Assembly: GCF_002115785.1 (NCBI RefSeq)
Contig: NZ_JFJY01000001.1
Span: 682,001 to 746,000 of the forward strand
DNA length: 64,000 nt
DNA from: Thalassospira sp. MCCC 1A03138
GTDB taxonomy: Bacteria > Pseudomonadota > Alphaproteobacteria > Rhodospirillales > Thalassospiraceae
Direction: 5' to 3'
Shown here: piece after piece, positions 30,867 through 32,963 of the stretch
Numbering within the stretch: position 1 is the first letter of the stretch
How the letters are laid out: every line of letters starts with the position of its first letter
Position numbers and translations under genes: made by a program
Notes under the pieces: model-generated
What the model saw: only the letters and a program-made list of their open reading frames with translations
What the model was told of the DNA's origin: nothing
Databases searched by the model: none

Positions 30867-31439
30867 TTAATTGTCTTTTGCGACATGCTGCTTCATCAGC
30901 AATTCTTCGGTTTCTTGGACATCGTCATCAGCACCCCGCCAGTATCCTTCGCGGATACACATGATGCAGCGCATGACCTGTGCGATCCCCTGAATGAACA
31001 GAAGAATGCCTGCGGCCACCATGATCGACTTGAACTGGAAAATCGGAACACCCGCCGGGCTGTTCACGCTGACTTCCCCGTATCCCCACGACCGTGACGA
31101 ATATTTCCAGCCGGACAGGATCAGGGCGGTGATACCGGGAAAGAAAAAGAAGATGTAAAGCACAAGATCGACACTCGCCTGTGTCCTTGGCTTCCAGAGA
31201 CGATAAAGGAAATCACCCCGCACATGGCCGCCGCGTGAAAGCGTATAGGCCCCGCCCATCATGAATAACGAACCATACATGATGAAGGACACATCAAGTG
31301 ACCATGTCGTCGGCGCGTTGAAAACATAACGCGCCATCACTTCGTAACTCATTCCCAACGTCATCAGGATGATGAGCCACCCGAAAGCCTTGCCAAACCA
31401 GGCCGAAAGCTTGTCCGCGAATTCAATAAAACTGATCAT
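30867..31439 (-). CDS. TRAP transporter small permease, DctQ type (FcbT2-like)
   Basis: 190 residues with four membrane segments (about 15-35, 48-66, 90-112, 136-158). MARYVFNAPTTWSLDVSFIMYGSLFMMGGAYTLSRGGHVRGDF is the typical helix 1-2 region of this larger DctQ branch. It partners with the DctM encoded just downstream. It is separated from the binding-protein gene by a 360-base gap that holds the palindromic element at 31461-31723. Confidence 0.9.
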   Translation of the reverse strand: MISFIEFADKLSAWFGKAFGWLIILMTLGMSYEVMARYVFNAPTTWSLDVSFIMYGSLFMMGGAYTLSRGGHVRGDFLYRLWKPRTQASVDLVLYIFFFFPGITALILSGWKYSSRSWGYGEVSVNSPAGVPIFQFKSIMVAAGILLFIQGIAQVMRCIMCIREGYWRGADDDVQETEELLMKQHVAKDN

Positions 31440-31460
31440 GAAGTCTTTTCCGTTACCGTA

Positions 31461-31723
31461 GGGTCAGGACCCATTAATTTGTTTGAAATGGTCAATCAGA
31501 TTTGTGCGGATACGCGGAGCAAAACCGCAGGAAGATGTTTATCTTTCAAGGTTTTGCGACAAAGTAGCCCGTGCAAATCCGATTGATCCGAAGGACAGGC
31601 GTTATATTTGCGAACTCCGGCGTCAAATCCCTTGTCCGGGATGTCGACCCGCTCGGCGGGCTTTTCCTTGGATTTCGCAAATATAACGCCTGCCATTCCA
31701 ATCAAATTAATGGGTCATGACCC
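31461..31723. repeat. 263-bp branched palindromic element between dctP and dctQ
   Basis: The outer arms 31461-31491 and 31693-31723 are reverse complements in 28 of 31 positions. Inside them two further inverted repeats lie back to back: 31492-31503 with 31575-31586 (11 of 12) and 31596-31614 with 31674-31692 (19 of 19). Only nine bases are unpaired at the junction. Arm 1 ends in nested hairpins (31519-31526 with 31550-31557; 31532-31536 with 31541-31545), and arm 2 carries two small hairpins. The whole folds as a three-way junction. It encodes no convincing protein. The terminal GGGTCATGACCC is itself a palindrome, as in a miniature mobile element. Confidence 0.75.
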
Positions 31724-31780
31724 TTGCACCACCCCGGAAACCACTGGTCCCCGGGGTAGCCTTTGGGTCAGACAAACCGT

Positions 31781-31800
31781 ATGAAACCAGTCGGTTTCAT
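31781..31800 (-). terminator. Hairpin at the 3' end of the TRAP binding-protein gene
   Basis: ATGAAACC (31781-31788) pairs with GGTTTCAT (31793-31800) around AGTC, overlapping the first base of the dctP stop. A second stem, ACCCCGG/CCGGGGT (31731-31757), follows on the transcript. Neither is followed by a T run, so both look more like 3'-end stabilisers that would raise binding-protein levels over permease. Confidence 0.45.
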
Positions 31801-32963
31801 TACAATTTCAGTTTGCCCGGGAAGTAGTGGTCATAGGCCAGCTGATAATCCGGCGAGTTCATCAGTTCATAATAGGTCACGCGCTCAACCCAGGCACGCT
31901 GGCTATCAAGAACCTTTTTCATGAACGGATCTTCTTCAAGCTGCGGGATCAGCTTGTCCCAGGCTTCAAGCTGGGCAGCCAGAATTTCCTTCGATGTACG
32001 ATGGATGGTAACGCCGTCGTCCGCCAGTTTCTGAAGGTCGGACGAATAGTTATCCATCGCCAGTGCCGTGTTCGACGTCGAAGCAGCTTCTACGCCATAG
32101 CGCAGGATCGCCTGCAGATCAGGGTCGAGGTCTTCATAGAAATCACGGTTGAAGATGAACTCGAAGCTTTCGGACGCCTGATGATAGGACGACAGATAGT
32201 AGTTCTTCGCCACATCCTGCGCACCGAACCGCATATCCGATGACGGGTTGTTGAATTCGAACGCGTCAATAACGCCGCGCTCCATCGCCGGGACGATCTC
32301 ACCGCCCGGCAGCTGTGCAACCGACATACCCATCGATTGCAGCAGATCAGCAGCCAGACCCACGGTACGGTATTTGAAGCCCTGGATATCGGCGACAGAA
32401 TTGACCTGCCCCTTGAACCAGCCGAACGGCTGGGCCGGCATCGGGAAGCCAAGAAGACCAATCACGTTCAGCCCCATAACGTCCTGGGTCAGTTCGCGAT
32501 AGAATTCTTCACCGCCACCGGCATAGAACCAGCTCAGCATGGTGGTGGCCGAACCACCAAACACCGGACCGGTACCAAACAGCGACGCCGCCTTGTTCTT
32601 GCCGTACCAGTAAACCGGCACGGAATGGGCAATATCAATCACGCCATCATTGACGCCATCGAGAACCTGGAAAGCCCCGATAACGGCACCGGCTGGCAGA
32701 AGGTCAACCTTCAGGCGACCACCCGACATGGCTTCGACACGATCGGCATATTGCTTGGCAAACGTCATCCAGATATCGGATGACGGCCAGGACGTCTGCA
32801 TTTTGACGACCAAAGGTGCAGGTTGTGCATGAACTGCCGGGGCGGCGAACAGCCCCGAAGCAGCAGCGCCACCGGCAACAACACCGGTAGCACCCTTGGT
32901 AAGGAACGAACGGCGGGACACTTGCTTCGACTTCACGTCTTCAGGCGTAGGTATCTTTTTCAT
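31800..32963 (-). CDS. TRAP transporter binding protein with Tat-type signal (TakP/FcbT1 group)
   Basis: 387 residues. A twin-arginine signal SRRSFLTKGATG at about 17-28 is followed by a hydrophobic stretch and AVHAQ, suggesting folded export. The mature protein starts VVKMQTSWPSSDIWMTFAKQYADRVEAMSGGRL, the pattern of the TakP-like branch used for 2-oxo acids and aromatic acids. WFKGQVNSVADIQGFKYRTVGLAADLLQSMG and PGGEIVPAMERGVIDAFEFNNPSSD are the ligand-contact regions of that branch. GGGAGGAAG precedes the start. The amidase in the same operon hints that the ligand is an amide or its acid. Confidence 0.9.
   Translation of the reverse strand: MKKIPTPEDVKSKQVSRRSFLTKGATGVVAGGAAASGLFAAPAVHAQPAPLVVKMQTSWPSSDIWMTFAKQYADRVEAMSGGRLKVDLLPAGAVIGAFQVLDGVNDGVIDIAHSVPVYWYGKNKAASLFGTGPVFGGSATTMLSWFYAGGGEEFYRELTQDVMGLNVIGLLGFPMPAQPFGWFKGQVNSVADIQGFKYRTVGLAADLLQSMGMSVAQLPGGEIVPAMERGVIDAFEFNNPSSDMRFGAQDVAKNYYLSSYHQASESFEFIFNRDFYEDLDPDLQAILRYGVEAASTSNTALAMDNYSSDLQKLADDGVTIHRTSKEILAAQLEAWDKLIPQLEEDPFMKKVLDSQRAWVERVTYYELMNSPDYQLAYDHYFPGKLKL

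Follow-up and report, generated by a model that had tools for sequence, protein, structure and literature searches.

The near-saturated 263-bp palindrome at positions 31461-31723 of the window (the whole 64,000-nucleotide stretch of Thalassospira sp. MCCC 1A03138 that was analysed) is best explained, with good probability, as a miniature transposon (MITE) with IS5-type ends that carries an inverted pair of conserved, strand-specific hairpins. The original prediction had offered two alternatives, a miniature mobile element or a structured RNA tuning the dctP to dctQM ratio. Since mobility and covariation were both supported, these alternatives do not exclude each other.

Folding of the palindrome gave a three-way junction. 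The minimum free energy of the plus-strand RNA was -134.4 kcal/mol as compared to a shuffle mean of -73.9 (z -12.4), and none of 200 shuffled sequences folded as well, which agrees with the proposal that the pairing is saturated beyond chance. The same junction was obtained for the minus strand (z -12.1) and with DNA parameters (z -12.4). Three abutting inverted repeats were present where they had been predicted: the outer arms (31460-31491 and 31693-31724) are 32 nt long and 91% complementary, and arm 2, which lies within a 36-nt inverted pair (31583-31618 and 31670-31705, 86% complementary), has a perfect 19-bp basal stem, by direct reading CAGGCGTTATATTTGCGAA / TTCGCAAATATAACGCCTG. Arm 1, taken earlier for a 12-bp stem, is actually a long bulged hairpin, separated from arm 2 by a 9-nt mini-hairpin (Table 1). 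The count of nine unpaired bases holds for the junction but not for the whole element, as each arm has internal loops, and the end sequence that had been named, GGGTCATGACCC, is that of the right end, whereas the left end reads GGGTCAGGACCC. The element codes for no transposase, and its longest internal open reading frames are 67 and 69 amino acids.

Table 1. Features of the element and its surroundings, in window positions.
Feature	Position	Strand	Evidence
Whole miniature element, three-way junction, 263 bp	31461..31723	+	Inverted repeats, folding, full-length homologues
Left terminal inverted repeat, GGGTCAGGACCCATTAATTTG...	31461..31491	+	Same end on IS5/IS427-like element in L197
Right terminal inverted repeat, minus strand reads GGGTCATGACCCATTAATTTG...	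31693..31723	-	Inverted-repeat detection, extracted copies
Arm 1, bulged hairpin	31492..31586	+	Folding, double changes
Mini-hairpin TCCGAAGGA between the arms	31587..31595	+	CCCGAAGGG or CCCTTCGGG in many remote relatives
Arm 2, hairpin with perfect 19-bp basal stem	31596..31692	+	Folding, inverted repeats
Conserved hairpin motif, copy 1	31498..31580	+	94.4 bits with R2; own sequence in R2 training set
Conserved hairpin motif, copy 2	31604..31684	-	R2 24.8 bits, E 6e-7 in 263 bp (filters off)
Terminator-like stem CCCGC-TCG-GCGGG, then CTTTTCC, at arm 2 tip	31648..31660	+	Consensus scan alone
Left TA target copy	31459..31460	.	Single TA in relatives' empty sites; TA left of 81/100 copies
Right target copy, now TT, TA expected	31724..31725	.	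TA right of 60/100 copies; T first in nearly all others
dctQ, TRAP small permease subunit, start 22 bp from element	30867..31439	-	PF04290, E 1.3e-21
dctP, TRAP solute-binding protein, upstream in operon	31800..32963	-	PF03480, E 1.4e-37

The search for further copies returned a single full copy in the source Thalassospira genome and many in related ones. Among 100 relatives, matches were found in nearly all other Thalassospira genomes (up to 18 per genome), and most of 28 other Thalassospira genomes hold full-length 263-bp homologues with 81-95% identity. Rather than a lone copy with no relatives and no empty counterpart, the element thus represents a family that is abundant in relatives, and an empty site exists. 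When 100 copies were extracted, TA was seen at the left end in 81, at the right end in 60 and on both sides in 52, and in most of them a pyrimidine precedes and a purine follows the TA (a YTAR-like context). In the window, dctQ, dctM and dctP of a TRAP transporter adjoin the element, all on the minus strand. The orthologous dctP-dctQ gap is clean and without element in five relatives (G010, G005, G028, G016 and G025), with flanks 85-99% identical; in G005 and G028 the empty site reads CCGTTACCGTAGCAACC, as compared to CCGTTACCGTA-element-TTGCACC in the window. As close relatives have one TA at the empty site, insertion was at this single TA and the right copy later mutated to TT, so that the TA...TT flanks here add to the target duplication seen in other copies. 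Together with an IS5/IS427-like element that has the same ends, the copies, the empty site and the TA flanks clearly point to a non-autonomous miniature transposon, inserted at a TA between dctP and dctQ.

A conserved regulator of the dct operon, setting the dctP to dctQM ratio, would fit the location between dctP and dctQ, where a stable structure so close to dctQ could alter expression. However, the same gap is empty in the five relatives, and other copies adjoin many different genes. The element is therefore very improbable as such a regulator, and judged from the empty sites the present insertion is too recent for that role.

Not all related sequences are intact or of this length. Degenerate solo ends (L116 and L117) were set aside as partial copies with no gene within, and self-splicing or intron-like behaviour found no support, as copies are mostly intergenic. 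Elements of other lengths occur at L252 and L318 (G292) and at L251 (G316), and in the G316 element arm 2 has shrunk to a short stem, giving about 170-190 bp overall. At the left flank of L124 an end fragment, GGGTCCTGACCCTA, directly adjoins the copy of another subfamily, which suggests that one element inserted next to or into another. On a Nitratireductor plasmid (L246) the element has a toxin-antitoxin-like gene pair on either side, one of PemK/MazF type and the other of RES/Xre type.

The likely mobilising partner was found by an exact scan for one end, which gave matches in Thalassospira, Labrenzia/Roseibium, Pelagibacterium and Mesorhizobium. The end in Mesorhizobium marks the borders of an entire insertion sequence (L197, 2851-3689; about 0.84 kb), TA-GGGTCAGGACCCATTAATTTGG ... 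GATCAATGAGTCCTGACCC-TA, which has two overlapping reading frames matching DUF4096 (PF13340), DDE_Tnp_1 and NCBIfam IS5_3; from this two-frame layout and the TA target we take it to be IS427-like. As the element shares its ends and TA flanks with this insertion sequence, its outer arms are transposon ends. What the IS427-like group of the IS5 family and the element have in common is the ends (GGGTCAGGACCCATT...) and the TA flanks. In contrast to the L197 insertion sequence, whose two frames hold DUF4096 and the DDE transposase, the element is without transposase, and unlike the element the insertion sequence has no hairpin core beside its ends. An IS5-family (IS427-like) transposase would accordingly be expected to move the element in trans. 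No transposase of the L197 kind was detected in the source genome at E 1e-10, so the copy there may be immobile. Matching insertion sequences were sought in 14 other genomes, mostly with none found, and the IS5-family ends there gave weak or no match. IS630 was also considered as parent on account of its TA target; the ends of the PF13358 loci in Thalassospira did not match. Other Thalassospira insertion sequences have ends that match other subfamilies of the element, namely L231 (GGCTCAGGGCCTATTAATTT), L232 (GGGTCAGGACTC / GGGTCAGGACCCATTG) and L229 (GGCTCAGGACTCATTGATT), and L234, L235 and L238 have ends such as GGGTCTGAACCCAATTG, as in copies L118-L124. Changes in the outer stem between subfamilies thus track insertion sequence ends at least partly, and on this comparison part of the outer-stem change is explained by those ends and not by selection on RNA.

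The interior behaves differently from the ends. Divergent copies retain it while their stems differ in sequence, and in arm 1 a double change was seen in 21 of 38 predicted pairs. With arm 1 as the model, multi-copy relatives were found in other alphaproteobacterial families, several of them TA-flanked and about 170-264 bp long. We then used R2, a covariance model of the hairpin with 84 positions, at a threshold of E 1e-4. It matched 17 of 385 genomes in the class and 41 of 398 Pseudomonadota genomes across the phylum, often in multiple copies, although the short calibration of R2 means that weak matches may include chance ones. The three-way junction recurs, at about 265-275 bp, in many of the inspected R2 loci. 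Hosts found by BLAST include Comamonas, Variovorax, Cupriavidus and Mitsuaria in the Betaproteobacteria and Pseudoalteromonas in the Gammaproteobacteria. In Thalassospira the core occurs within two kinds of ends, GGGTCAGGACCC-like and GGGTCTGAACCC-like; it lies within GGTTGTATCGACAG ends in L319, with comparable insertion sequence ends in L237 and L341, and within further ends such as AGGGCCTGTT and GAGCGTGTTCAC. The G615 core has ends (GGGAAGGTACGAATAAGTC / GGACTTGTTCACACCTTCCC) that resemble those of E. coli IS5; the IS5 end, GGAAGGTGCGAACAAGTC, was verified immediately upstream of an annotated IS5 transposase. In G828, G548 and G801 the ends differ among copies of one genome. These comparisons show a predicted hairpin that is conserved across Pseudomonadota (alpha-, beta- and gammaproteobacteria) within transposon ends that vary. 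A decayed IS5-like transposase was also seen in G615 (L380), accompanied by an end similar to those of the local miniature elements (4 mismatches in 18). The hairpin copy at L297 (1723-1819) has a gene for bacterial small SRP RNA (RF00169, 60.4 bits) about 140 bp away.

The second hairpin lies in arm 2, and it is inverted. On the plus strand of arm 2 R2 scored 2.6 bits with filters off, as compared to the minus-strand match in Table 1, and outside elements the best R2 score was at most 14.3 bits in 85 kb. A second R2 match, in some cases weak, was found in 18 of 26 other elements, where it occupies the opposite strand of the other arm, and both hairpin copies were detected with default filters in five elements. 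By model score and folding, the correctly oriented hairpin is thus on the plus strand in arm 1 and on the minus strand in arm 2, and the interior reads as two inverted copies of one predicted hairpin around a mini-hairpin, with no remnant of the insertion sequence. In two minus-strand elements (L106 and L114) the tip of arm 2 is turned round relative to other copies, so that the motif has one and the same sense in the two arms, which suggests internal flipping of the palindrome.

Covariation was analysed in a sequence-based alignment of 17 sequences (A2) and in 72 sequences fitted to the model (A3). In A2 93.8% of cells pair, with double changes in 20 of 25 pairs, and the covariation score was 0.553 as compared to 0.155 for shuffled and at most 0.136 for slid controls; in A3 93.0% pair, with double changes in 24 of 25 pairs, and the score was 0.797 (0.198 shuffled, at most 0.126 slid). 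Scores above both kinds of control support, in general, the proposal of a structured nucleic acid. The two strands are not equivalent. With helices defined strand-symmetrically, 20 representatives had G.T at 56 and A.C at 25 positions, and A3 contained G.U in 107 and A.C in 21 cells (60 vs. 21 without the one strongly conserved wobble, a G.U pair retained in 47 of 72 sequences). Columns 24/87 covary in a non-canonical manner (A.G in 45, C.A in 23 and other in 4 of the 72), and two unpaired positions are near-invariant, A at column 78 (72/72) and G at column 34 (70/72). From this retention of G.U, avoidance of A.C and A.G/C.A covariation we conclude that the predicted hairpin is strand-specific, with one strand that folds. 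As groups, paired and unpaired columns did not differ significantly in entropy (p 0.12, 72 sequences), since the apical loop and the outer unpaired columns vary; the claim of fixed loops rests on the specific internal-loop positions.

An ordinary decayed MITE, with stems kept matching by template switching (quasi-palindrome correction) and a fold without selection, would account for some of these observations. Pairs such as 12-252 and 33-125 are either TA or CG, and none of 78 copies has an intermediate, as expected of one-step copying; moreover, within the main Thalassospira family sporadic mismatches have no G.U excess, G.U and A.C being about equal. The latter counts against RNA selection on every copy, and this fits neutral decay of single copies within a recent family. 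On the other hand, copying would turn mismatches into Watson-Crick pairs, so the kept G.U and the A.G/C.A covariation oppose template switching, which also leaves the phylum-wide fixed internal loops and the G.U to A.C ratio unexplained. We therefore regard this explanation as improbable.

With a selected hairpin as the preferred reading, the fold would act as RNA and in cis, on the transcript that contains it; it might serve as a docking site for a host protein or ribonuclease, for instance, or shield or attenuate that transcript, and such cis action may help the element persist next to genes. Transcription through the element from either strand would yield one correctly folded hairpin. RNA is favoured on two grounds: one strand retains wobble pairs and non-canonical covariation, and the inverted pair ensures a correct copy whichever strand is transcribed. 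Nevertheless, the RNA-level, cis-acting step is the least certain part of the proposal, and we put it forward tentatively, at somewhat below an even chance. The fold could instead act as single-stranded DNA, recognised by a protein during replication, transposition or transfer as REPs are by RAYT transposases, although we consider this unlikely. G.T and tandem G.A pairs also form in DNA, which counts in favour of such a role. So do the identical junction predicted with DNA parameters, a consensus scan in which no promoter-like site was found in the element, and the resemblance of the opposite-sense inverted hairpins to the REPIN arrangement (PMC3116915). However, the ends and the TA duplication are those of IS5-type double-strand transposition and not of the IS200/IS605-type single-strand process. 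In addition, the replacement of A.G by C.A at columns 24/87 presumably fits the isostericity of non-canonical RNA pairs, which we count against a DNA role.

The genomic context was analysed at 103 independent sites, with genes called by a simple codon model. The element lies between divergent genes at 35 sites and between convergent genes at 11, and in tandem gene pairs the antisense orientation of arm 1 relative to transcription (35 sites) outnumbers the sense orientation (17 sites; p 0.018). This antisense bias in operons counts against the preferred reading. A portable terminator, selected to end or insulate transcription, might be proposed from the rarity of plus-sense insertions, given the terminator-like stem with CTTTTCC on the plus strand. 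Yet the U-run lies outside the phylum-wide conserved motif, and convergent sites, where a terminator would be most useful, are the rarest, so there is little to recommend this explanation. Several genes end exactly at the element (e.g. L071, L072 and L112), as the target TA and the first G of the element form a TAG stop codon for abutting genes.

Overall, we lean slightly towards an undescribed structured RNA motif that travels through Pseudomonadota as an inverted pair in unrelated IS5-family ends, and whose fold would aid its spread or tolerance. Rfam 15, searched at permissive thresholds with 17 loci and the window stretch, returned nothing on the element above gathering score, and no matching description was found by sequence or description in the open-licence literature. 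A pattern scan of viral contigs gave 17 matches, roughly the number estimated for chance. A phylum-wide core with exchangeable ends appears to be new, whereas the IS-mobilised structured repeat is already known as a kind (PMC10969869, PMC3049150, PMC3116915). Like MITEs as described in the part of PMC10969869 available to us, the element is short, non-coding and intergenic, has IS-like terminal inverted repeats and a target duplication, and has a very stable predicted transcript fold; unlike the element, the MITEs in that part of the account are not described with a covarying, strand-specific, phylum-wide hairpin-pair core in various ends. The pneumococcal BOX and RUP repeats are likewise IS-mobilised, extensively structured and near genes, and BOX repeats also give genes stop codons; they are reported from S. 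pneumoniae and S. suis with no mention of covariation, and BOX, unlike the element, is modular (boxA, boxB, boxC) (PMC3049150). REPINs share two inverted opposite-sense hairpin units and are extragenic and non-autonomous, but they are tied to RAYT tyrosine transposases, without IS5-type ends or TA duplication, and their unit is a short REP (PMC3116915) as compared to the 80-nt bulged hairpin of the element. The Correia elements of Neisseria are MITEs whose inverted repeats fold in mRNA, with reported RNase III cleavage; as far as they are covered in that part of PMC10969869, where they are cited, processing is at the terminal repeats, whereas the conserved structure of the element is the inner hairpin.

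MITEs are usually viewed as dead remnants of insertion sequences with information-free interiors. Here it is the interior that is conserved, across three proteobacterial classes, and the ends that change. If the fold acts as RNA, the element would be a portable structured RNA placed beside many different genes, and thereby a route for new regulatory RNAs to arise. The contribution of the hairpin to a non-coding parasite thus becomes testable.
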